DNA of 64,000 bases, taken from assembly GCA_017463255.1 (NCBI GenBank), contig JAFTPP010000002.1:163712-227711 (forward strand). The letters run 5' to 3'. The DNA comes from Lachnospiraceae bacterium. GTDB lineage: Bacteria; Bacillota; Clostridia; Lachnospirales; Lachnospiraceae. Of the stretch, positions 2,614-52,062 are shown piece after piece; within the stretch, counting starts at the first letter, position 1; every line of letters starts with the position of its first letter. The translations under genes and the position numbers were made by a program. Below the pieces are notes generated by a model. It was not told the DNA's origin and searched no databases. It saw only the letters and a program-made list of their open reading frames with translations.

Positions 2614-2859
2614 CTACCTCATAAACGCATCAAGCACTCTGATTCCCGCAGCCATCTCCTTAAGCTTTGGCAGCTCTCTTTGCATATATGCCTCTAACTG
2701 TTCTACTTCTTCTGCACTAAATCCCGTATTGGAAATAATCTTACAATCCGGTATTTTCCCCTCCGCGTTTCGCTTTCCGTCCACAAAAGACACAAATGCA
2801 TATTTCTTACCGTCCTTGGAACAAATTGGTGATACTGACATATTAACTCCATCGCTCAT
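2614..2859 (-). CDS. conserved hypothetical protein, 81 residues
   Basis: The ATG at 2859 is preceded by AAAGGGGATTCTCTT, a good ribosome binding site; longer upstream starts would overlap the previous gene. The protein starts MSDGVNMSVSPICSKDGKKY, continues with a beta-rich stretch (AFVSFVDGKRNAEGKIPDC) and ends with a helical tail rich in Glu and Leu. No signal peptide or membrane segment is present, so it is probably cytoplasmic. It follows the 396-residue coiled-coil protein by 52 bp on the same strand and ends at a terminator, so the two likely form an operon. I do not recognise a family with known function. Confidence 0.7.
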   Translation of the reverse strand: MSDGVNMSVSPICSKDGKKYAFVSFVDGKRNAEGKIPDCKIISNTGFSAEEVEQLEAYMQRELPKLKEMAAGIRVLDAFMR

Positions 2860-2911
2860 AAGAGAATCCCCTTTCATCACGTTTTCATATATTGTATCAC
2901 AAATGCAAGGT

Positions 2912-4102
2912 CTACGCTCCCATAATATCTCCGATTCCTTCTTCACAATCCTTCATGGCTTCTGCCATTGCCTTGCAATCAAACCGGTCAATAAAAAGAT
3001 AAAGACACGCCAACTCCTTCTGCTTCCCGTTTTTCTGATTGCGTAATTCTTTCAGGTGTTTTAATACTTTATATCCCTGTGCCACATTGTAATTTGCATT
3101 GTCCACTTCGGTCAATATATTCTCTATCTCCTGTTCCATATCTCTGATATCTGCCTGAAGATTCATAGTATACTGTTCAATATTGGCATAAAACTCTGTC
3201 TGTTGTTTCATAAACTGTTGCCAATCATTTTCCTGTCCGTCAAACACGGTCTGCCTTCTTGTGTATTCCATAATTTCACCTTTCTGTGTCTCTGCTAACC
3301 CCAAAGCTTCTGTTGCCTGCATCGTATCCTTAGCTAACCCCAAAGCCTCTGCATCATATTCATTAACACACTGTTCTTCTCTGTCATATGCCCGCAACGC
3401 ATCCATACAAGTACTTCCGCTCAATGTTACCATCAGCTTATCTTCCCTTACTGTCTTTTCCGGGCAATTTTCAAACAGCTCGTCTAACTTTCTGGGACGG
3501 TATCCTCTCGTATCTAACTTTTTTATCTGTTTAAGCCCATCTTTTGCTTTTGCCACGTTAGACATCGTTCCTATGGAATCTTGAAAACTCTCTATTCGAA
3601 CCATCTCATCCTTAATATCCCGACGCTGTTCCCTACATTCTTTTAACAAGGTTACCAACCGGTAACAATCTTCACTTTGCATGTCGTAAAGCTCAATGTA
3701 ATGCATGATGTCACATATTTGTAAATCAATCTCGGATAATGCCTGCTTGAGTTCCTCCTGATATTTGGGAAGTCCCGAGACCATCTTGCAGAATCCGTTA
3801 AGATAACCGGACCAATCAACTTTCGCCAGTTCAGGAATCTTATTCATTTTGCTTTCATCAACATATCCGGCAACACTTTCCTCTTTTACATAGCTCACAT
3901 TTTCTTCTTCCACAGGAATTGCCGAATAAAAATGGGCTTTCTTGCCACCGCCGATTCTCTGGTTAGCTTCCGTATAACTGAATATCCCTGCGTTTTGCCT
4001 TCCGTCAGCTACTACCAACTGGTTATTTCCGTTAATCCTATAGTAATTACCGCTTCCGTCTACGATAAAATGCATGCTGCTCATTACATCCATACTGTCC
4101 AT
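2912..4102 (-). CDS. hypothetical coiled-coil protein, 396 residues
   Basis: The ATG at 4102 follows GGGAGGTATATTT. Residues 10-55 contain a short beta-type segment (FIVDGSGNYYRINGNNQL). The rest is mostly alpha-helical and charged, with likely coiled coils around residues 105-190 and 285-375 (runs such as LKECREQRRDIKDEMVRIE). EALGLA occurs twice, 12 residues apart, a small internal repeat near the middle. There is no signal peptide or transmembrane helix. Its partner downstream is the 81-residue protein. A structural or secretion-accessory role is possible but nothing in the sequence decides it; I do not recognise a characterised family. Confidence 0.7.
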   Translation of the reverse strand: MDSMDVMSSMHFIVDGSGNYYRINGNNQLVVADGRQNAGIFSYTEANQRIGGGKKAHFYSAIPVEEENVSYVKEESVAGYVDESKMNKIPELAKVDWSGYLNGFCKMVSGLPKYQEELKQALSEIDLQICDIMHYIELYDMQSEDCYRLVTLLKECREQRRDIKDEMVRIESFQDSIGTMSNVAKAKDGLKQIKKLDTRGYRPRKLDELFENCPEKTVREDKLMVTLSGSTCMDALRAYDREEQCVNEYDAEALGLAKDTMQATEALGLAETQKGEIMEYTRRQTVFDGQENDWQQFMKQQTEFYANIEQYTMNLQADIRDMEQEIENILTEVDNANYNVAQGYKVLKHLKELRNQKNGKQKELACLYLFIDRFDCKAMAEAMKDCEEGIGDIMGA

Positions 4103-4216: not shown

Positions 4217-4242
4217 AAAAAAGGCACCGGTTTCCCGATGCC
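4217..4242 (-). terminator. Rho-independent terminator
   Basis: Arms 4223-4230 and 4235-4242 (GGCACCGG / CCGATGCC, one wobble pair) with a 4-base loop are followed on the minus strand by six T. It lies downstream of the 442-residue membrane protein gene (4389-5717). Nothing else clear is seen in the gap 4103-4388. Confidence 0.75.
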
Positions 4243-4388: not shown

Positions 4389-5717
4389 CTATTTACCTTT
4401 TCTAATCACGTTCCCAAGTCCGAACCTCCACGTACAATACAATAGGGCAATGACCGTTACCATCTGCGCCCGATAAGTAAAGAAATAATGGATAAACGCA
4501 TGGTTTTGTAACAGTAAAAACCTGCCATAAGGTATTACGGCAAGTATGGCACACAAGCCTAACATCTTGCCCGATAAGTTCTTACTGCGGAACATATATA
4601 CCAAAAAGCTGCAGATGAAAAGTACTGCAAAGAAACTGGCAAATCCCGCAAAATCCGTCATATTGTCCTTATAAGGAAACAGCATTCCCTGATTACGGAA
4701 TAAGGCACCGAAAAAGCGTTCCAAAGGAGTAGCAAGCGGATGCAAAGTCGTATTTCCCATATGCACCGCACCCGTAAAACGCTCCCCTGCGGATGATAAA
4801 GCAAGCATGAATGCTTCCTTACCCGCAAACATTGCCACCAATATCCACTTAAAGACAAACATCAGGGCATATCCCATACCCCAGATTACCACGTAGGATA
4901 TCAGTTGTTTTAACTCTTTTTTCCACTCTGACAGTTCCCCTGCTTCATAACGCAGAATCAAAAGAACCAATAACGGCACCGTTAATGACAAAGTCTCCGC
5001 CGTCAAAAAATCAATAAAGCAGGTGCACACGCCGGATACCGCCATTAGAAGTGCAGGGTCTTTTCTTTTTCTAAAAAGACATATACCTGCAAGTGTTATG
5101 GCATTCATCATAAAGAACATGGTGCTGTACTGAATACAGGTTGCACAAACCCATGCCTGCATCACAATATGAGCCGCAAAATAACAGATTGCCAAAGCCT
5201 TTGCGCCCTGTTTCCACATAAGCCACATATTGAGCAGCATAAGCACAATCCATATTGCAGCAAAAACAATACGTGCTCCTTCAATATCCGTAACCAAAAA
5301 CAGCGGCCTTAAAAAGCTCAATGTTCCGTGCCAATAACGGGAATAATCAACATTAGGTTCTTTTTCCTCCTGTAAGCTTTCCCACAGTCCGGTGTTTACA
5401 TTTCCATGCTTTGGCTGATAATAAGATGCTTTGACCGAGGATTTTACCGGCTCATCATCGGATATATGATACATAATATCCACCAAAATACAATCGGAAT
5501 AATTATCCTGCCTGGTATTAAACTGATTCTCAATAAGATATGGGAATAACTCATGGTCATTAAAATACCGGGCACTCTCCACACAGGATTCCTTAATGGC
5601 ACTTTGTGGAATAAGAGCGGTAAGAAACAAAAGAAGCATACAGCTCACTCCTGTAAGAACAATCACGCTCAATATTTTCCCTATCCCGGTTATGTTCATT
5701 TTGCTTCTTTCTTTCAT
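4389..5717 (-). CDS. polytopic membrane protein, function unknown
   Basis: A 442-residue protein with an N-terminal hydrophobic helix (residues about 12-34), a soluble extracellular loop of about 110 residues, then some eight further membrane helices. The layout, with one helix, a large loop and many helices, resembles GT-C-type glycosyltransferases or polymer-handling membrane proteins, but no catalytic motif is certain. The conserved-looking tail (NHAFIHYFFTYRAQM) precedes the last helix. The start at 5717 has AAAGG about 12 bases upstream; a second ATG at 5699 is possible. It begins 34 bp after the stop of the third secreted-protein gene and shares its strand and terminator, so it may belong to that operon and act in export or modification of those proteins (inference). 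Confidence 0.7.
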   Translation of the reverse strand: MKERSKMNITGIGKILSVIVLTGVSCMLLLFLTALIPQSAIKESCVESARYFNDHELFPYLIENQFNTRQDNYSDCILVDIMYHISDDEPVKSSVKASYYQPKHGNVNTGLWESLQEEKEPNVDYSRYWHGTLSFLRPLFLVTDIEGARIVFAAIWIVLMLLNMWLMWKQGAKALAICYFAAHIVMQAWVCATCIQYSTMFFMMNAITLAGICLFRKRKDPALLMAVSGVCTCFIDFLTAETLSLTVPLLVLLILRYEAGELSEWKKELKQLISYVVIWGMGYALMFVFKWILVAMFAGKEAFMLALSSAGERFTGAVHMGNTTLHPLATPLERFFGALFRNQGMLFPYKDNMTDFAGFASFFAVLFICSFLVYMFRSKNLSGKMLGLCAILAVIPYGRFLLLQNHAFIHYFFTYRAQMVTVIALLYCTWRFGLGNVIRKGK

Positions 5718-5751
5718 TTCAAGTTCACACCTTTATAGTATTCCTAATCCC

Positions 5752-6792
5752 TTATTCACTGGCTATTGCGTCTAATTCGCTCTTCTCAATCATGGTTCTT
5801 CCAAACATGGCGTTTAACTTAAGCGGACCGTACCAATCAATGCCTTCTTCCAGTTTTGCTCCTTGAGGAACATCCACATAGAAACATTCGCCGCCATAAT
5901 TATAATAAAATGTATAGCCGACCCCTTCCTTACTAATCAACTCTTTCAATACATTCGCGCTAAAAGAATGCCATACGGTTGCATCAACTTTCAGTGTATC
6001 TCCCGGTTTTGCCTCTGATGCTTGTTTTAATAAGTCATTTGTATAATCCATTTGTTCCATAAAAGCACGTTCTGCATTAGCACTGGCATTGCCTGATGCA
6101 CCGGTTCCTCCCACGGACGCAAGCGTAATGGTAGCCCAAGCCTCATCACTATTTCTTATTTCAGATGCTACCCCCGTTACCGTAACATCCTTATCAAAGG
6201 TATACGTGTAAGGATTGTTTCCACTCCACTCGCTAGAATCTACTGTTACTCCGTCAATCACAAGGGAAACATCATACAGTGCGCCGGAGTACACTTCATC
6301 AGATATATACTTGATACTATCTCCCTCATATATCATATCTCCCACTGAAATCCCGTTTACTTTATTTTCCGAAGTAGAATACCTTAAATTTCTCGTTACA
6401 GGCACATCCGCTTCCAGATATAAATTATAAGTTTCACTTCCATCGTCAAATCCGGCATCTACAATTTCAGCTACTGTATACACAATGCTTTCCGCCCCTG
6501 ATAATGTAACATACTTATAATCATACCCGTTATCCCACGTTGATGATGCTTGAGCACCTTTTACATACACATTTATAACCACACCGCCCGTATCTTCACG
6601 CCACATTATTTTATCGCCGCCGTGATACGTGGTTCCGACCGTTATTCCGTTCACATCGTTTTGATTATCAAATCGATACTCTGCTGCAAATACCGACATG
6701 CTGCTTCCTACAAGCATCATGACAGTCATCATCAGGGCTAACCATCCCTTAAATCTTTTCTTTAATTCTGTTTGCTTAATTGATTGTTCCAT
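5752..6792 (-). CDS. secreted protein A with conserved C-terminal domain (346 aa)
   Basis: Signal peptide at residues 1-37 (WLALMMTVMMLVGSSMSVFA, cleavage near AEYRF), so exported. Residues 38-215 contain two similar beta-rich units, each starting with an NG-[IV]-x-V-G motif (VNGITVGTTYHGGD and VNGISVGDMIYEGD). Residues about 255-340 are the conserved domain shared with the next two genes upstream, from AKPGDTLKVDATVWHSF to WYGPLKLNAMFGRTMI. No LPXTG or other anchor is visible. The ATG at 6792 overlaps the end of the preceding gene by 17 bp and its AAGGAGGAATTTTT lies inside that gene, so translation is probably coupled. It is the third gene of a likely LytTR-controlled operon starting near 9560. 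Confidence 0.85.
   Translation of the reverse strand: MEQSIKQTELKKRFKGWLALMMTVMMLVGSSMSVFAAEYRFDNQNDVNGITVGTTYHGGDKIMWREDTGGVVINVYVKGAQASSTWDNGYDYKYVTLSGAESIVYTVAEIVDAGFDDGSETYNLYLEADVPVTRNLRYSTSENKVNGISVGDMIYEGDSIKYISDEVYSGALYDVSLVIDGVTVDSSEWSGNNPYTYTFDKDVTVTGVASEIRNSDEAWATITLASVGGTGASGNASANAERAFMEQMDYTNDLLKQASEAKPGDTLKVDATVWHSFSANVLKELISKEGVGYTFYYNYGGECFYVDVPQGAKLEEGIDWYGPLKLNAMFGRTMIEKSELDAIASE
5788..6020 (-). repeat. C-terminal-domain DNA repeat, copy 3
   Basis: About 230 bp nearly identical in DNA sequence to 6812-7042 and 7820-8050. It encodes the conserved 78-residue tail of secreted protein A. Differences between copies are scattered single bases, many at third codon positions, which points to fairly recent duplication or gene conversion. 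Confidence 0.85.
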
Positions 6793-7723
6793 TTAAAAAT
6801 TCCTCCTTATCAATCATGGTTCTTCCAAACATGGCATTTAACTTAAGCGGTCCATACCAATCAATGCCTTCTTCCAGTTCTGCTCCTTGAGGAACATCTA
6901 CATAGAAGCATTCGCCGCCATAGTTATAATAAAAGGTGTAATTCACCCCTTCCTTACTAAACAACTCTTTCAATACATTCGCGCTAAAAGAATGCCATAC
7001 GGTTGCATCAACTTTCAATGTGTCTCCCGGCTTTGCAGCTGATGCACGCGTTAACAATTCCCTGTAAAAAATATGTGCTGCACTTTCTTTTGGTGCCGGT
7101 TCTTCTCTCGAAGAAGCAACCCACTCTCCGTTATTTAATGTATAGATACCCGGTTCACTTACAACCTCTTCATAATCTCCATTCCTATACTCATAGATTT
7201 TTGCTCCTTCTGCAAGAATCACTTCATTGACAATGCCGTATTGGTACCCAAGCGCTCCGGTAATTGTCGCTCCGTCAATGGTTCCTTCTCCCATATTAAC
7301 TTCACCGAATGTACCACCATTGATGGTTCCTCCTTCCATCATAACAAAACCGAATGTACCACCACTGATAGCCCCTGAACTATAATTCCAAACATAATCA
7401 ATACATCCATCGGTGGATATAATCGTTCCCCTATTCCACAATGGCTTCGCATACTCAAACGGAATACTACTTACATTCACCAATGCAACAGAATAGCCAC
7501 TATAAACATTCACCCCACCGGAATTCCAAGAGCACACACAATTCCCCGATTCGATCGCTCCATCTCTATAATTTCCTGCACCATCACACCACGAGAAGCC
7601 GTTCACAAATTGGTCAAAATCAACCGTAATTACATCTGCTGCCTCTGCATTCATGGGTAAAGCACAACAAAGCATACATACCAGCATAAATGATATGAAT
7701 TTTCTTAAAAATCTTTTCTTCAT
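6776..7723 (-). CDS. secreted protein B with conserved C-terminal domain (315 aa)
   Basis: Start ATG at 7723 follows CGGAGGAATTCAAA. Signal peptide residues 1-28 (ISFMLVCMLCCALPMNAEA). Residues 30-200 form a Gly-rich beta-repeat region with runs such as GGTFGFVMMEGGTINGG, the look of a short right-handed beta-helix with rungs of about 17-18 residues. Residues about 222-305 are the shared C-terminal domain (AKPGDTLKVDATVWHSF to NAMFGRTMID). It is the middle gene of three tandem paralogues, and its end overlaps the start of secreted protein A by 17 bp. It is probably released or held at the cell wall through the C-terminal domain; the actual function is unknown. Confidence 0.85.
   Translation of the reverse strand: MKKRFLRKFISFMLVCMLCCALPMNAEAADVITVDFDQFVNGFSWCDGAGNYRDGAIESGNCVCSWNSGGVNVYSGYSVALVNVSSIPFEYAKPLWNRGTIISTDGCIDYVWNYSSGAISGGTFGFVMMEGGTINGGTFGEVNMGEGTIDGATITGALGYQYGIVNEVILAEGAKIYEYRNGDYEEVVSEPGIYTLNNGEWVASSREEPAPKESAAHIFYRELLTRASAAKPGDTLKVDATVWHSFSANVLKELFSKEGVNYTFYYNYGGECFYVDVPQGAELEEGIDWYGPLKLNAMFGRTMIDKEEFLNGTIN
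6812..7042 (-). repeat. C-terminal-domain DNA repeat, copy 2
   Basis: Near-identical partner of 5788-6020 and 7820-8050, encoding the C-terminal domain of secreted protein B. The similarity stops sharply at the domain borders, while the upstream halves of the three genes are unrelated. Confidence 0.85.
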
Positions 7724-7782
7724 TTTGAATTCCTCCGTTTTATTCGTATGTATTTTATTAACCTTATTTTCCCCGGTTACAC

Positions 7783-9516
7783 CTACTTAAATAACGTTGC
7801 GTCAAATTCGCTCTTTTGAATCATCGTTCTTCCAAACATAGCATTTAACTTAAGCGGACCGTACCATTCAATGCCTTCTTCCGGTTCCGCTCCTTGAGGA
7901 ACATCTACATAGAAGCATTCGCCGCCATAGTTATAGTAAAAGGTATAATTTACCCCTTCCTTACTAAACAACTCTTTCAATACATTTGCGCTAAAGGAAT
8001 GCCATACGGTTGCATCAATTTTAAGTGTATCACCCGGTTTTGCTGCTGCTGCTCTTTTTAGTAACTCTTCAGTGAAAGCCCGTGCAGCTTTGGCCGAACT
8101 TGAAATTACACTGCCCGAACCTATCTTCTCACCACAACCAAGACAATATGTATCTCCCGTATATCCGTCCGTTGTTGATGTGGCAGGGAAAGCATCCCGT
8201 ATCTGTGTTCCGCCGTCATGTTTATTCGGGTTCATTTCCCCGTTTGTTCCACTGCAATCCGTACAAGTCGGTGGGGCAATACATGTAGCGTCAGCGTATA
8301 CGCAATCTCCATCCAGTGTGGCACCACAACAGCATGTTCTTGTATGCGTATCATCTCCGTTTGGTATACAAGTTCCATAAATATGGTGTGAATTGCAAAT
8401 TACGGTACCATTATTCATAATTGTTCCTGTTCCTTCAATTGTTCCGTTATTTGTTAATGTCTTTCCGGCAGGTACAATTAATGTAGATCCTTCCGGAATA
8501 ACCAAGTTCTCTCCGGAACCAATCACTAAGTCTTCTTCTAAGGTGTAATCCCCATAAACCATTCCCTTACCATTTATGATTAAAACACAATTATCGCAAC
8601 TAAATCGTTCCATATCAGTCGTTATGGTCTCTGTTATTTTAAGAAGTCCTCCTGATATATTAGTAGTCTGTATGGTTCCTATTCCCCTAGGAGCAGTTGT
8701 TGTCACCGTTCCTCCATTAATATACAGAAAGCGATTAGACCTATCCTCATCGTTCGCACTTGCCAATCCAAGCTGAAGCCCTATACCTCTACCTCCCGCG
8801 GCGTATGCTGTAATACTTCCTGCGTTTATCGTTATATCACCATTCGATGTAGCAATGCCACTTGGATATCCTGTATTGTCATTGGCTATTCCTGTCAGAC
8901 TGCCGCCATTTACCACAATATTCTGATTAACTTTTATGGCAACAGACATGGCTGGCGCACTCCCACAAGTGGCCTCTATTTCCCCATCATTAACAGTCAG
9001 GCTACCGGCCATAACCAAAAAAGTTCCCACATTCGCATTTGTATCAGGAGCTGTAATTGTAAAAGTTCCGTTTCCTTCTACTTGTATGTTTCCATCTTCA
9101 ATATAAACGGCATAGCTACTGTGCCCACTGGGTGTCTTTCCCACATTCAATGTATTATTGCCTTCCAGTATAAGCTTAAGATTGTCGCTATCTGTAACAT
9201 ATATACCCATCGCATGATCAGAGGTTCTCGCATAATAACCACCATCCAAAGAAAAATCATGCAATGTAAGTGTTATAGGATTCGCATTTACGTTTAGATA
9301 AGCATATCCTCCTGATGGTTCATCTGCCACTGCCGTTTGGGATGCCACGTCATAATAGGGTGTATCAGCAGATAATAATACTCCCGTTCCTTCCTCATTT
9401 CCTATTGTCACTTGAATTCCTGCGGCATATGCAGACATATCAACACCTAATCCGACAAGTATTAGTGTCATTACCACCGTGACCACTGTTAAAGCTTGCC
9501 ACATTCTCTTTTTCAT
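7783..9516 (-). CDS. secreted protein C with beta-helix, Cys-rich repeats and conserved C-terminal domain (577 aa)
   Basis: The ATG at 9516 is used because GGAGGAATATGGT lies in front of it; a TTG five codons earlier falls on the ribosome binding site itself. Signal peptide residues 1-32 (TVVTVVMTLILVGLGVDMSAYA). Residues 60-370 are beta-helix-like, with hydrophobic/Gly rungs (ITLTLHDFSLDGG, LILEGNNTLNVG, INGGTVTTTAPRG) as in DUF4353-type carbohydrate-binding surface proteins. Residues about 375-470 hold Cys-rich CxxC segments (CCCGATLDGDC, CTDCSG, YCLGCGEKIGSG), a repeat type common in Firmicute surface proteins. Residues 490-570 are the shared C-terminal domain. First gene of the operon; adhesion to a glycan surface is plausible but inferred. 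Confidence 0.85.
   Translation of the reverse strand: MKKRMWQALTVVTVVMTLILVGLGVDMSAYAAGIQVTIGNEEGTGVLLSADTPYYDVASQTAVADEPSGGYAYLNVNANPITLTLHDFSLDGGYYARTSDHAMGIYVTDSDNLKLILEGNNTLNVGKTPSGHSSYAVYIEDGNIQVEGNGTFTITAPDTNANVGTFLVMAGSLTVNDGEIEATCGSAPAMSVAIKVNQNIVVNGGSLTGIANDNTGYPSGIATSNGDITINAGSITAYAAGGRGIGLQLGLASANDEDRSNRFLYINGGTVTTTAPRGIGTIQTTNISGGLLKITETITTDMERFSCDNCVLIINGKGMVYGDYTLEEDLVIGSGENLVIPEGSTLIVPAGKTLTNNGTIEGTGTIMNNGTVICNSHHIYGTCIPNGDDTHTRTCCCGATLDGDCVYADATCIAPPTCTDCSGTNGEMNPNKHDGGTQIRDAFPATSTTDGYTGDTYCLGCGEKIGSGSVISSSAKAARAFTEELLKRAAAAKPGDTLKIDATVWHSFSANVLKELFSKEGVNYTFYYNYGGECFYVDVPQGAEPEEGIEWYGPLKLNAMFGRTMIQKSEFDATLFK
7820..8050 (-). repeat. C-terminal-domain DNA repeat, copy 1
   Basis: Third near-identical block, encoding the C-terminal domain of secreted protein C. 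It shares long identical tracts with the copies at 5788-6020 and 6812-7042. Confidence 0.85.
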
Positions 9517-9569
9517 ACCATATTCCTCCAAAACGATAAAGTGTTAAATAGCTTGAAAATGCTCATATT

Positions 9570-9597
9570 ATTTTACTAAATCCCCTTTTATTTTCAA
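9570..9597 (-). promoter_or_regulatory. promoter of the secreted-protein operon
   Basis: On the minus strand TTGAAA (9592-9597) and TAAAAT (9570-9575) are separated by 16 bp. This is a sigma-A-type promoter 54 bp upstream of the ATG of secreted protein C. The direct repeat at 9607-9637 lies 9 bp upstream of the -35 box, where a LytTR activator would be expected. Confidence 0.6.
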
Positions 9598-9606
9598 CAT
9601 TTCCTG

Positions 9607-9637
9607 CACAATGCGCAGATTTTTGACATAATCCGCA
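9607..9637 (-). promoter_or_regulatory. candidate LytTR-regulator binding site (direct repeat)
   Basis: On the minus strand the 11-mers TGCGGATTATG (9627-9637) and TGCGCATTGTG (9607-9617) match at 9 of 11 positions with a 20-bp period. LytTR-domain regulators typically bind two imperfect direct repeats about two helical turns apart. The site lies between the divergent response-regulator gene and the secreted-protein operon, 9 bp upstream of the operon -35 box. Binding by the product of 9746-10456 is inferred. Confidence 0.55.
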
Positions 9638-9745
9638 ATTTTTTATTAAAAAATATGCCCTATAATGAAATCCTAATCTCTTTCATAATGGATTTTATGT
9701 TACAATATGATTAACTTTGAATGCCACCGTTTATGGAGGAGTTTT

Positions 9746-10456
9746 ATGAACATCGCAATTATTGAAGACCTTGATAAAGACCGTGAACAGGTTTCATCTT
9801 ACTTAAACCGATATATGACAGAGCTTGGTCTTACTTATCATTTATACACATATGAAAGTGCAGAAGAATTCGTAGAGGCGTTAAATACCCTTCGGTTTCA
9901 AATTGTTTTTATGGATATTTATCTGAAAGGTATGACAGGAATGGAAGCCGCCATGTGTTTACGGCGTCTTGACAGAGACTGTAAGTTAATTTTTCTTACG
10001 GTATCCACAGAGCATTGTCTGGATGGCTTTAGAGTCAATGCCAGCCACTATCTTGTAAAACCGTTTACAGACCATGATTTTACAGAAGCCATGGAACGTT
10101 GCAATTTGCAGCCGGCATATGATGTTCCGTATCTGGATGTGGTATACGAAGGCAGCAATCTTAAACTGAATACCGAATCGATTTTATACATACAGGCACA
10201 AAAACGTAATGTCCTGATTCAGACGCTGAATCAGACTCTGATTGCAAATGGTCCCTTCCATTCTCTTACCAAACCACTTTTGGATGACAAGCGGTTTTTA
10301 CTATGCATTCAAGGGGTTTTAGTAAATATGGATCATATAAACAGTCAGGAAGATACCGTCTTTATTGTAAAAAATGGAAACAGGCTTCCCATTAACATAC
10401 GTAACAAAAGACAGATATTGCAGCACTACCGCAATTACATTTTTGATAACATGTGA
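9746..10456 (+). CDS. LytTR-type response regulator
   Basis: A 236-residue regulator starting at the ATG at 9746 after GGAGGAGTTTT; a 13-residue longer frame lacks a ribosome binding site. Residues 1-120 form a receiver domain: acidic pair E7/D8 (IIEDLDKD), phosphoacceptor D57 in IVFMDIYLKGMTG, and K105 in LVKPF. Residues about 130-235 form a LytTR DNA-binding domain (LNTESILYIQAQKRNVLIQT and FLLCIQGVLVNMDHI). It overlaps or nearly abuts the kinase gene (stop 10456, kinase ATG 10465), a matched pair. A TACAAT at 9701-9706 may be its -10 box, but I find no good -35. The likely target is the divergent secreted-protein operon through the repeat at 9607-9637. Confidence 0.9.
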   Translation: MNIAIIEDLDKDREQVSSYLNRYMTELGLTYHLYTYESAEEFVEALNTLRFQIVFMDIYLKGMTGMEAAMCLRRLDRDCKLIFLTVSTEHCLDGFRVNASHYLVKPFTDHDFTEAMERCNLQPAYDVPYLDVVYEGSNLKLNTESILYIQAQKRNVLIQTLNQTLIANGPFHSLTKPLLDDKRFLLCIQGVLVNMDHINSQEDTVFIVKNGNRLPINIRNKRQILQHYRNYIFDNM

Positions 10457-10464
10457 GTTTACTT

Positions 10465-13400
10465 ATGAAACGTACCAAAAAAGCATTCCAATTACTGAAA
10501 ACAACTGCATATGGCAAGTCTCTCATACCGGCCTTTATCATTTTCCTTTTGATGGCCGTACTCTCCTTGCCCGTATACGCCGATGAAACACAGGAAGGTG
10601 AGTCGGATTCTGCCGTTTTTTATACTGTAACCGGAATAGAAAACAGTGAACAACTGGCCAATCTTTTGCCTTTTGAAATGGTACGGCGCTCTTCTCAAAA
10701 TACAGAACCCCTATTTTACCACGTCTACAATAATGGTTTATTAACTGTGAATGCTACCATAAAAGACAGTGAAGGTAATATTACTAACCAAACATTGCCG
10801 GTCTCATGGAGCTGCTGGGATAACAGCACCACCATTACAAATACCACTGTCTGCGGAGAATATATAGAAACCGGAACCATTCAACTTCCGGATGCTTCCT
10901 ATACGTGGGGTGATGGTGTTTTATCAGAATTAAGCCTTCTTGTCAGGGTATATGATCCCACAGAACCGGTTGAGATTGTTGCATTAGAAGAGGTATGGAA
11001 CGAATTCAGTACTGCATTTTCCTTGGAACAAAACAGTAGTATGGATGACCTTCTTGCAAGTTCTCCTCTTCAGACAACATGGCCATGCTATGACGCTATG
11101 GGTAATGAGTATCTCTGTCCTGTAATCTATAACACAGATGCTGTTATAGAGGATACTGTTGGTATATATGAAATTACCGCTACTTTTGAAGCACCGCTTA
11201 ATTGCCGGTTTTCTGATAGTCTCACAGTACCATCCTACTCTATGCCGGTAACTGTGCAGGCTTTAGGGCAACCCCGTTTAGATTTATCTTATATAAGTCC
11301 CAATTATGAATATATCCTTTTTCCATGGATTACATCCGGCATCAACCTTGACACCATAGAGGTATGGTTATCTGAAAATGATGGAGAATGGCGGATGTTA
11401 GAACCGGATGATGAAGTGTTTATACATTCCACCGTGCTCGACCTTTACGCGTGGTATCTGAATGAAGGAAGTACTTACCGGATTCAGGTTGACTACGAGG
11501 GTGGTCAAACCGGTATTGCCTCATTTACCTATGGTTGGGACATTCTGTCTGACAAAGAATATATTGAAGGTGACAGAGATGGTGGAGATACAAACGGTAA
11601 TGCACCCATAACTCCGCCGGAGTCTTCTGAACCTACAGCACCGGAACCTTCAGTACCGGAGGTTAACGTACCTACCGTACCGGAACCTACTGTACCTGAG
11701 GTTAACGTGCCTACCGTACCGGAACCTACTGTACCTGAGGTCACTGTACCTACAGAGCCGGAAGTTACTGAGCCTGAACCCACTGTACCTACAGAGCCGG
11801 CGTCTACAGAGCCCGAACCCGCTGTGCCTACAGAGCCGGAGGTTACTGAGCCCGAACCCACTGTACCTACAGAGCCGGAAGTTACTGAGCCCGAACCCAC
11901 TGTTCCTACAGAGCCGGAGTCTACAGAACCCGAGGTTGCTGAGCCGGAGTCTACAGAACCCGCTGTGCCTACAGAACCCGAGCCTACCGAGCCTGAAACT
12001 TCAGAGCCTTATCTTCTTGGCAGTGAAATGAATACCATGTTGGAAACGTCGGACACAGCCCTTTTTTCTAACGGGTCTATCAGTCTTAATATACCTGCGG
12101 ACAGCATTGCATCCCTTGACCTAAGCAGCACTGACCGCATACTTGTAACAATACTTCCTCATGGGAATAATGGTTTTTCCGTTAGCATTTTCAAAAATGA
12201 TGTTGCTGTGACAAAAGTATCCACCATGCAGATTTCTTTGCCCTATGAACCTGCCAAAAACACCGTGCCGGTTTTATTTAGTGAAAATGGCAATAAAATA
12301 GCATCCGGAGATTATGTAACGGAGACAGGACTTGTTACTTTTACCATTCATGAAACAGGTACTTTTTACATACAGGACGAGGCTGTTCCATTACAGGCTG
12401 CTATTGCGGACAATACTTCACCGTCCATGCTGATAGCTCTTGTGGTGACAGCAATCATCTTCTTTGCTATTATTGCAATACTTCTTATTACAAACAAAAG
12501 AAAATATATTCCATATCTGCTTACACTACTGGCCGCTTCCGGTTTATGTGTCAGCTTATATCTATGGAATAATAAATATACACACGATGGCATTCAGCCA
12601 AGTCAGGGACAATTATCTGTTACGGAGGCTAACTTGGAAAAAACCTCTTTCCTGATTCGTGACTGGGAATTTTATCCTGACCAACTGCTGACCCCCGATA
12701 CTTATCCGGGCGAGCGCATGGTTTACACTGCCATCGGTGACCGTACCCGGTTTGACGGATTGGGAACACGTACCTCTCCTCATGGTTATGGCAGTTACGC
12801 GCTACATATAAATCTTCCTAAGGATACCCAAACCTATGCTTTAGAGTTACCGGAGATTTATTCTGCGTACCGCTTATACATAAATGGTAAATTAATAACA
12901 TCCGTAGGAAATCCCCTGCCGGATTCCTATACCCCTGCAACTCAGGCTAAGATAGTGACCTTTGAAGCCGGTGGGCAAGCAGATATCCTGCTAGCAGTCA
13001 GTGACTACTCCCATTTTTATAGCGGAATGGTATACCCGCCTGCTTTCGGGACATTTTCAGAAGTGAACTCTCTGCATAATATGCGCCTTGCGGTTACACT
13101 GATTGCCTGTACCATTGGATTGCTGTTTTCTCTGTTTTATATTTATTTTGGCATAAACATGAAGCAAAAGGCTCCTTTCCTATTTGCTGCCCTATGCTTT
13201 ATTATGTTTTTAACACCCCTGTTTCCAATCATTCACAGTTTATGGGAATTACCTGTTTTCCCGTGGTATGCTTTGGAACTCATATGTATCTACCTGATTA
13301 TGTTTTTCGTAATCCTGTTACATAACAGGCTATGTGATACCGGATACTACTGCCGCCGTATTTCTACTGCCATATCTGCCGGCTTCTGCCTTGTTGCAGG

Positions 13401-14439
13401 TTGCTATGGCCTCTTCTCGGCGTATTTGACCGTACCGGTCATGCAGTTGTATTCCCGTTGTTTGTTTATTTATAAGCTGGCTTTTGCCGCTTATCTATTG
13501 ATTAGTGCAGGTTTATCATTAAAGAGACTGAATCAGATTGCAAAACCTCTGTTTTTTGCAGAAATAGCGTATGCTGTTGTATTTATCTGGGACCGTATTC
13601 TTCCTACATTTGAGCCCATCTTCTTTGGTTGGTTTATGGACTGGGGAAGTCTGATGATTGTATGTGCCATTGGCTATACCCTCTGGCGCGACTTAACAAG
13701 TGCCTATATGAATAAGCTGGCCTTTGAGGAAGAAAATCATCAATACAAAAAACAGCTTGCCATGCAGGAAGTATATCAGAAAGAACTGAACGGACAATTA
13801 GAAGAACGCAGAAGGATGACCCATGACTTCAGGCAGCAAATATATACCATATCCGGTTTTGTAGAGCAGTTAAAGAATTCTTCATCGAAAGAAACATCCT
13901 TAACACAGTTAGAGAAATACCTTAATTCCCTTACTGCCCATACAACCACTCATTCTAATATGATAACCGGTGCTTTTTCTCAAAACACCGCCGTGGATGT
14001 ATTGCTGCAATATTATTATTTCTGTGCCAAAGAACATAATATTCATATGGATATCCGTTTTTGCCTGCCCCAAAGTCCAATCCTATCCGATGTGGAGTTG
14101 TGCACGGTCTTGGGAAATCTATTGGAAAATGCAGTGGATGCCTGCAACCGGATGCCGGATTTAGCGGAATCCGATTCACAAAAAAGAATATCCCTCAGTT
14201 CCCGTGAAACTGAAGGACAATGGTTTGTCTTCGTAGAAAATACTTATGACGGCATAGTGCAAAAAAAGAATAACCGGTTCCTTTCACGCAAGGATGCCAA
14301 TTCCAAACGTTTCGGCATCGGTTTAGAATCCGTAGAAGACATCGCCAAAAAACATAACGGCATTCTTGATATCTACCCCAAAGAAACTGTATTTGGTGTT
14401 GGAATTACATTTAACAAAAAAACCGCTTCCCACGCATAG
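10465..14439 (+). CDS. giant 7TM sensor histidine kinase with surface-protein-like ectodomain
   Basis: A 1324-residue protein (ATG 10465; a GTG at 10453 is possible). Order: N-terminal signal/anchor helix (residues 20-40, PAFIIFLLMAVLSLPVYA); beta-rich Ig-like ectodomain (45-380); a Pro/Thr/Glu-rich stalk of about 130 residues (385-515) built of PTEPEVTEPE-type repeats; another beta domain (520-640); two helices (650-700); a 7TMR-DISM-like domain (710-860, ending in VYPPAFGTF); about seven helices (870-1075); a kinase dimerisation helix with H1120 in MTHDFRQQI; and a GHKL ATPase with N box LLENAVDACN near 1218 and G box FGIGLESVEDI near 1283. The class matches LytS/AgrC-like kinases that pair with LytTR regulators. 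The fusion of a wall-spanning surface protein to a 7TM kinase is unusual; 1324 residues is well over twice a normal kinase. Confidence 0.85.
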   Translation: MKRTKKAFQLLKTTAYGKSLIPAFIIFLLMAVLSLPVYADETQEGESDSAVFYTVTGIENSEQLANLLPFEMVRRSSQNTEPLFYHVYNNGLLTVNATIKDSEGNITNQTLPVSWSCWDNSTTITNTTVCGEYIETGTIQLPDASYTWGDGVLSELSLLVRVYDPTEPVEIVALEEVWNEFSTAFSLEQNSSMDDLLASSPLQTTWPCYDAMGNEYLCPVIYNTDAVIEDTVGIYEITATFEAPLNCRFSDSLTVPSYSMPVTVQALGQPRLDLSYISPNYEYILFPWITSGINLDTIEVWLSENDGEWRMLEPDDEVFIHSTVLDLYAWYLNEGSTYRIQVDYEGGQTGIASFTYGWDILSDKEYIEGDRDGGDTNGNAPITPPESSEPTAPEPSVPEVNVPTVPEPTVPEVNVPTVPEPTVPEVTVPTEPEVTEPEPTVPTEPASTEPEPAVPTEPEVTEPEPTVPTEPEVTEPEPTVPTEPESTEPEVAEPESTEPAVPTEPEPTEPETSEPYLLGSEMNTMLETSDTALFSNGSISLNIPADSIASLDLSSTDRILVTILPHGNNGFSVSIFKNDVAVTKVSTMQISLPYEPAKNTVPVLFSENGNKIASGDYVTETGLVTFTIHETGTFYIQDEAVPLQAAIADNTSPSMLIALVVTAIIFFAIIAILLITNKRKYIPYLLTLLAASGLCVSLYLWNNKYTHDGIQPSQGQLSVTEANLEKTSFLIRDWEFYPDQLLTPDTYPGERMVYTAIGDRTRFDGLGTRTSPHGYGSYALHINLPKDTQTYALELPEIYSAYRLYINGKLITSVGNPLPDSYTPATQAKIVTFEAGGQADILLAVSDYSHFYSGMVYPPAFGTFSEVNSLHNMRLAVTLIACTIGLLFSLFYIYFGINMKQKAPFLFAALCFIMFLTPLFPIIHSLWELPVFPWYALELICIYLIMFFVILLHNRLCDTGYYCRRISTAISAGFCLVAGCYGLFSAYLTVPVMQLYSRCLFIYKLAFAAYLLISAGLSLKRLNQIAKPLFFAEIAYAVVFIWDRILPTFEPIFFGWFMDWGSLMIVCAIGYTLWRDLTSAYMNKLAFEEENHQYKKQLAMQEVYQKELNGQLEERRRMTHDFRQQIYTISGFVEQLKNSSSKETSLTQLEKYLNSLTAHTTTHSNMITGAFSQNTAVDVLLQYYYFCAKEHNIHMDIRFCLPQSPILSDVELCTVLGNLLENAVDACNRMPDLAESDSQKRISLSSRETEGQWFVFVENTYDGIVQKKNNRFLSRKDANSKRFGIGLESVEDIAKKHNGILDIYPKETVFGVGITFNKKTASHA
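11620..12010 (+). repeat. Pro/Thr/Glu-coding tandem repeat region inside the kinase gene
   Basis: Imperfect repeats encode units such as VPEVNVPTVPEPT and EVTEPEPTVPTEP over about 130 codons. Such stalks commonly span the Gram-positive cell wall. The repeats can change length by slippage, so kinase ectodomain reach may vary between strains (inference). Confidence 0.85.
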
Positions 14440-51321: not shown

Positions 51322-52062
51322 ATGCATATAGCTATTTGTGATGACAACATTGCCGACCGTAAACACACGGAACGTTTACTGGGCAGAGAAGCTGATAAAA
51401 GAAGAAATGATGTGAGCGCTTTGTATATTGACTCTTTCGGTCATGTAGATGCATTGTTACGTGCTCCCATGATTTATGACGTTTTTTTCATTGATTATCA
51501 TTCCGATGAATTAAGCGGCATTAAGCTTGCGGAAAAATTACGCCACGCCGGTGTTATGGCACCTATTTACATCTGTGCCCACACACAGGATGGCGAATCC
51601 AATCCTGCCATAACGCCGATTAAGGTAGAAACAGACCACGCTTCATGGGGAATGGAATTATATGAAATATTTAAGCCATTACAGCCTTCTTCCCTATGCA
51701 AAGCATTAGATCATGCCGCTTCACTGATAGGAACCAGAGAGACACCTTTAGAAATACGTTCTAAGGATGCTACTCATTATCTTACGAAAGATGAACTTTG
51801 CTACATAGATACCAGAAAAACAGATATGGTGCTTTATCGTACCGATGGAAGTACCACCCACTTAATCAATACCTTCAGAGAGCTCTGGCACACTTTTGAG
51901 AATCATTCCGAATTCATATGTATCGGTCACTCCTACATAGTGAATACCATGCACATCAAACAGGTAACCCTGACTAAGATAATCTTTGTGGGAGGTAGCA
52001 ATTTAAGAATCCCCCTCTCCCAATCCGGCAAAATAAGAAAAGCAATTAGGAAAGCAAAATAA
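51322..52062 (+). CDS. orphan LytTR-type response regulator
   Basis: A 246-residue regulator. Receiver domain residues 1-135: CDDNIADRK acidic pair, probable acceptor Asp in VFFIDYHSDELSG, Thr in ICAHTQDG, Lys in EIFKPLQ. An extra loop of about 20 residues (SNPAITPIKVETDHASWG) separates the last two motifs, longer than usual. LytTR domain residues 140-246 (LTKDELCYIDTRKTDMVLYR, FICIGHSYIVNTMHIKQV). No kinase gene is adjacent. Ribosome binding site is weak (GGGGTTAAAAAT). Its partner could be the kinase at 10465-14439 or one elsewhere. Confidence 0.87.
   Translation: MHIAICDDNIADRKHTERLLGREADKRRNDVSALYIDSFGHVDALLRAPMIYDVFFIDYHSDELSGIKLAEKLRHAGVMAPIYICAHTQDGESNPAITPIKVETDHASWGMELYEIFKPLQPSSLCKALDHAASLIGTRETPLEIRSKDATHYLTKDELCYIDTRKTDMVLYRTDGSTTHLINTFRELWHTFENHSEFICIGHSYIVNTMHIKQVTLTKIIFVGGSNLRIPLSQSGKIRKAIRKAK

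Follow-up and report, generated by a model that had tools for sequence, protein, structure and literature searches.

What does a LytTR regulator with a sensor kinase do beside an operon of exported proteins, and do the two sides of such a locus form one system? The question is raised by positions 4389 to 14439 of a 64,000-nucleotide stretch of a Lachnospiraceae bacterium genome (GenBank assembly GCA_017463255.1, contig JAFTPP010000002.1), here called the window. An earlier note had described, from the sequence alone, a LytTR regulator and a 1324-residue kinase facing three exported-type open reading frames (ORFs) and a polytopic membrane protein; all of these parts were found where it had placed them, arranged as two divergent units. 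The reading that we favour, with a probability of roughly one half, is that the regulator and its kinase, which is fused to a large ectodomain, switch on the facing operon, and that a GT-C-type enzyme encoded there decorates the three exported proteins outside the membrane.

An ectodomain fused to a kinase

The plus-strand unit consists of two genes that overlap by 4 bp:

9707..10456, plus strand: LytTR response regulator; likelier start at the in-frame ATG at 9746, behind GGAGG
10453..14439, plus strand: fused sensor kinase (signal peptide, ectodomain, Pro/Glu/Thr-rich linker, transmembrane helix, then multi-transmembrane GHKL kinase)
10543..12507, plus strand: ectodomain half, roughly residues 31-685; relatives have a gene of its own for it
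11569..11589, plus strand: GDRDGGD motif, residues 373-379, conserved in the ectodomain family (pattern search)
12520..14436, plus strand: kinase half, about residues 690-1328, with multi-transmembrane region, H1124 in HDFRQQ and GHKL ATPase

The regulator has the two domains of a LytTR response regulator, a receiver (PF00072, 2.5e-14, 53.8 bits, cut-off 30.2) and a LytTR domain (PF04397, 3.4e-7, 30.8 bits, cut-off 22.6). The kinase ORF encodes 1328 residues from a GTG, or 1324 from an ATG at 10465. It carries a GHKL ATPase domain (PF14501, 4.1e-14, 52.8 bits, cut-off 22) and, at H1124, a candidate for the H-box histidine that marks histidine kinases of the GHKL (HPK10) type, to which we assign it. 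A second regulator elsewhere in the window (51322-52062) has a LytTR match just under the Pfam cut-off (21.7 bits vs 22.6).

Kinase matches were observed in 13 of 299 genomes of the family, including the window's own. In one of these (G245) the kinase query is split over two adjacent genes, and in 14 of the 17 other kinase loci (10 genomes) the kinase gene adjoins one for a protein with a signal peptide and, mostly, a C-terminal transmembrane helix. These neighbours are picked up by a hidden Markov model that was seeded with the ectodomain of the window and its G245 counterpart and then iterated; beyond those 14 loci and the window, this model picked up no other ORF in the searched set. A regulator aligning nearly full length with that of the window is also adjacent in 12 of the 17. 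The window protein reads as the two genes joined end to end: a signal peptide (near residue 18) is followed by a transmembrane helix near residue 651, matching the last one of the ectodomain gene of relatives, another near 686, matching the first one of their kinase gene, and a transmembrane block from about 874. Judged by these alignments, the window kinase fuses an exported-type ectodomain protein to a multi-transmembrane GHKL kinase, and the window contains what we term the ectodomain-kinase module (an ectodomain adjoining or fused to a GHKL kinase, with a LytTR-type response regulator). An assembly error is unlikely, since a second fused protein (P0212), 91% identical over the ectodomain, exists elsewhere. 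The GDRDGGD-type motif occurs in 10 of 14 ectodomains, that of the window included. Within the linker, repeats rich in Pro, Glu, Thr and Val (11529-11900), which give rise to a 123-residue antisense ORF, could possibly form a stalk of variable length.

Three exported proteins with a common C-terminal domain

The facing unit comprises the following features:

7783..9516, minus strand: exported-type protein 3, 577 residues from ATG or 582 from a TTG at 9531, with signal-type N-terminus and C-terminal domain
7804..8082, minus strand: C-terminal domain of protein 3 (domain match G000:C19:171515-171793)
6776..7723, minus strand: exported-type protein 2, 315 residues, with a strand-rich, possibly beta-helix-like middle and C-terminal domain
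6779..7078, minus strand: C-terminal domain of protein 2 (domain match and structure model)
5752..6792, minus strand: exported-type protein 1, 346 residues, with a KKRFKGW-type signal peptide and C-terminal domain
5773..6042, minus strand: C-terminal domain of protein 1 (domain match G000:C19:169484-169753)
4389..5717, minus strand: polytopic membrane protein with a predicted GT-C fold, predicted to be a polyprenyl-phosphate-sugar-dependent glycosyltransferase
4223..4242, minus strand: terminator-like stem with T tail at the operon end (consensus match only)

The genes are spaced by 59, -17 and 34 bp along the unit and are followed by the terminator-like stem (8 pairs, T6 tail, read from 4242 to 4223), and therefore fit a single operon; the terminator scan as a whole gave 9 sites vs 7.7 in shuffles. 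None of the four proteins matches a Pfam or NCBIfam family above its cut-off. Each of the three exported-type ORFs has a signal-type N-terminus, according to sequence reading and a hydropathy rule. That they share only a C-terminal domain, as the earlier note had said, is borne out by BLASTP: identity over about 91 C-terminal residues reaches 85-90% (E 7e-61 to 7e-64), whereas matches among the N-terminal parts have E-values of 0.35 or more. Since the shared domain is also 90-92% identical at the DNA level (210 bp compared), with mostly synonymous codon differences (12-13 per pair, vs 3-6 that change the amino acid), it was probably duplicated or homogenised recently, with protein-level constraint kept. 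In protein 2 it is modelled as a mixed alpha/beta fold, with predicted local distance difference test blocks of 75-93 from residue 221. The domain ends at most 25 residues from the C-terminus in 42 of 45 ORFs, a position that fits the retention tag proposed in the note.

One may ask whether this domain, or the exported proteins as such, are what the kinase specifically senses. The adjacency in the window and the long extracellular half of the kinase would agree with such a role. However, of 38 other loci that carry the domain, just 2 have a LytTR regulator and a GHKL kinase close by, and in one of these two the genes are incomplete and lie at contig ends; 2.35 LytTR genes would be expected near the domain in 38 loci from their density in the window's own genome. 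In the 17 related kinase loci, the domain was assigned to none of the ORFs at E <= 1e-3. Recognition of the domain by LytTR kinases is thus unsupported, and for the link between domain and kinase the outcome is the one that the note itself had named as refuting. We consider it improbable that the kinase is tuned to this cargo.

Two further loci of the same genome carry the domain. The contig end at the start of C28 (locus L016, 189-1325) encodes two more exported-type or truncated proteins, whose domains are 45-46% identical; the next 11 kb include a hybrid kinase (at 7972), and neither a LytTR regulator nor a GT-C gene was found there. In the other (L017, 7931-8857 and 8959-11421), a protein with two tandem diverged copies has as its neighbours a hybrid histidine kinase and a receiver protein, the latter without a LytTR-type full-length match. 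Directly downstream of the operon, two minus-strand ORFs (2614-4102) gave very weak matches only (YwqH-like, E 0.19, and coiled-coil families) and are possibly type VII-related small proteins.

The membrane protein as a predicted glycosyltransferase

The structure model of the 442-residue membrane protein aligns with GT-C glycosyltransferases over residues 43-442 and has the GT-C fold; no PMT, GT39 or Pgf profile of Pfam or NCBIfam matched it at E up to 1. In its family D71, Y73 and D75, located after the first transmembrane helix, are invariant; GT-C enzymes have acidic residues in the first extracellular loop. It is predicted to be a polyprenyl-phosphate-sugar-dependent glycosyltransferase. 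The processing or exporting role suggested for it earlier is unsupported, since the model resembles GT-C glycosyltransferases. Exosortase-type pairs do resemble such sets of a polytopic protein and C-terminal tags, and the invariant Asp, His and Arg residues, the topology and the tagged exported partners would all suit a sorting peptidase or an exporter for which the C-terminal domain is the tag; against this stand the fold over nearly the whole model and the presence of a GT2 gene in 11 of 23 loci of close relatives, so that such an activity appears highly improbable.

Close GT-C relatives are associated with exported-type genes, which are their steady neighbours together with the GT2 genes in those 11 of 23 loci; family annotation covered these two kinds, and polymer genes may be among the other neighbours. 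GT2 also accompanies GT-C in locus L191, and there is none beside the window gene, with only a weak match elsewhere in the same genome; the combination of surface protein gene, GT2 and GT-C is therefore found in relatives and not in the window. The exported partners differ in their C-terminal ends, which may be the shared domain, LPXTG-like tails (by eye) or a WxVxGD tag; a sortase-B-type match was recognised once, in L174.

These differing ends can be read in two ways. The GT-C enzyme could decorate a cell-wall or teichoic-type polymer to which the exported proteins bind through their C-terminal domain, as a set of a glycan and its binding proteins. The solved GT-C relatives of the model include lipid A, arabinan and GPI (glycosylphosphatidylinositol) enzymes besides protein glycosyltransferases, and varied ends with a single sortase match would also be compatible with such a set. 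On the other hand, the consistent neighbours are exported-type genes and GT2, and the GT-C gene is kept while the ends of its partners differ between loci, which fits decoration of diverse proteins. We regard decoration of a polymer as possible but unlikely.

Several other observations concern these GT-C loci. The WxVxGD tag (YxLGxGxWxVxGDxTxYxGxxxFYVxxxGxYxF, about 45-60 residues) is unrelated to the shared domain and sits on exported-type proteins near the GT-C gene in L168, L171, L175, L182, L184 and L186; it occurs in 11 of 299 family genomes, seven of which carry the close GT-C subfamily (five of these seven being seed sources). Signal peptides near GT-C genes (L170-L187 and window 5752-6792) often contain K/R-K/R-F with A, G or L next (KKRFLAF, KKRFWAL, KKRFKGL), in 9 of 24 cases vs 7 of 151 elsewhere, for a motif defined after looking. 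L190 (2482-5071, genome G105) has two tandem GT-C gene copies and a GT2.

Does the regulator control the facing operon?

Between the two units lie:

9570..9597, minus strand: best promoter-like site upstream of the operon, TTGAAA-16-TAAAAT, 10/12 (consensus match only)
9607..9645, no strand assigned: candidate LytTR site, a direct repeat of period 20

The repeat, CACAATGCGCAGATTTTTG and CATAATCCGCAATTTTTTA at 9607 and 9627, is identical at 14 of 19 positions and ends about 10 bp upstream, on the minus strand, of the promoter-like site (9597-9570). At length 19, 24 of 1000 dinucleotide shuffles contained as good a repeat; at lengths 9, 11 and 15 the numbers were 108, 157 and 27. Promoter-like sites in the whole region numbered 39 vs 28.2 in shuffles. 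According to PMC4847170, a LytTR site consists of two repeats, each 9-11 nt long, that are separated by 11-13 nt. The repeat and the promoter-like site are suggestive of LytTR control of the operon.

An alternative explanation is that the two units adjoin without being functionally related, the module with the kinase serving other targets and the operon being constitutive. In line with it, LytTR genes occur at chance level both near the domain and near close GT-C relatives (adjacency of regulator and GT-C in L162, L183 and L192 is not above chance as counted), and the repeat is weakly supported. It accounts less well for the position of the repeat next to the best promoter-like site of the operon, or for the company that the module keeps in relatives. 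When a neighbouring gene, picked mostly by size, was scanned in 10 related kinase loci, a large modular surface protein adjoined the module in six. Wall-attachment domains exceeded the Pfam cut-off in four of these, namely L144 (SLH, choline-binding), L146 (SLH), L151 (SLH, LysM) and L155 (GLUG, choline-binding); the fifth, L157, has leucine-rich repeats (LRR) and a choline-binding match below the cut-off, and the sixth, L150, LRR and Ig-like domains in a gene cut by the edge of the compared stretch. The other four loci have a solute-binding protein (L148), a propeller/HD sensor (L153) or a neighbour without domain match in the scan (L147, L149).

The regulator tree bears on the same point. 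The window regulator pairs with that of G245 (99/91), and the eight-row clade around the two (89/94, drawn open) includes five ectodomain-module regulators and the regulator of L162, which faces an operon of GT-C, GT2 and exported-protein genes (the tree labels L142, L032 and L031 are the regulators of L144, L149 and L162). The remaining ectodomain-module regulators fall elsewhere, and the label as a whole is unclustered (3 changes; 500 of 500 shuffles as low). On balance, unrelated neighbours seem to us possible but unlikely. LytTR control of the facing operon stays plausible, with the repeat and the six loci in its favour; the other four loci lack such a surface protein.

Comparison with known systems

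The closest described arrangement is that of Streptococcus mutans cnm-pgfS-pgfM1-pgfE, in which, according to PMC5856776, an adhesin, a GT2 and a PMT-2-type membrane protein (PgfM1, 16 putative transmembrane domains) are co-transcribed, and the pgf genes are required for normal modification of the adhesin. The likeness is a surface protein gene beside a polytopic PMT/GT-C-type protein, with GT2 in relatives only; the GT2 of L162 has a weak match to the NCBIfam PgfS model (2e-10, 40 bits vs a cut-off of 500). In contrast to that cluster, the window has an enzyme of another subfamily, with neither a GT2 nor an epimerase adjacent, a common domain on its three cargo proteins and a facing LytTR system. 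In Caldicellulosiruptor bescii, deletion of a GT39/PMT-type glycosyltransferase removes protein O-glycosylation (PMC6151902). There too the enzyme is encoded near exported-protein genes; it belongs to family 39, however, unlike the window protein, whose protein substrate is putative.

On the regulatory side, the regulator, the GHKL kinase and a candidate direct repeat beside a promoter-like site recall LytTR/GHKL systems such as AgrCA, VirSR and the bacteriocin regulators, but the window kinase has a fused ectodomain of about 650 residues, for which relatives encode a separate anchored protein. The order of extracellular domain, transmembrane helix block and signalling output is also that of 7TMR-DISM receptors (PF07695), of which the window kinase has no match at E up to 1; among five relative kinases, that of L146 has one (2.1e-4, 21.7 bits, below the cut-off of 29).

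A proposed mechanism and its meaning

In the favoured reading, an extracellular or wall state would be perceived by the ectodomain and relayed by way of the membrane block to the GHKL ATPase. Once phosphorylated, the regulator would attach to the direct repeat and activate the adjacent promoter. The three proteins would leave by Sec, as their signal peptides suggest, and the C-terminal domain would keep them at the surface, as its position and the SLH, LysM and choline-binding domains of neighbouring proteins in some related loci may indicate. The GT-C protein, given its predicted fold, would transfer sugar to them from a polyprenyl-phosphate donor. The locus would thus combine known kinds, LytTR regulation and decoration of surface proteins by GT-C enzymes, with a fused sensor that is unusual; searches of the open-licence literature brought up no description of the ectodomain-kinase module, of the GT-C subfamily or of such a system in gut-type anaerobes.

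A wider proposal, speculative and rather unlikely in our view, is that a three-part system of Lachnospiraceae-type bacteria (LytTR regulator, anchored GDRDGGD ectodomain and multi-transmembrane GHKL kinase) monitors their own glycosylated coat, and that in the window lineage, with sensor and kinase fused, it has been wired to variable beta-helix-like proteins and a dedicated GT-C enzyme as a self-contained, switchable glycoprotein-coat cassette.

If the favoured reading is right, gut-type anaerobes would gain regulated presentation and glycosylation of surface proteins. Since sensor and kinase are fused in the window, the fusion would act as a "Rosetta stone", pointing to the anchored protein that a gene of its own encodes next to this kinase family, in 14 loci, as the sensing partner of the kinase. 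Likewise, the exported-type genes next to members of the close GT-C subfamily would provide candidate enzyme-substrate pairs, from 23 loci in 22 other genera.
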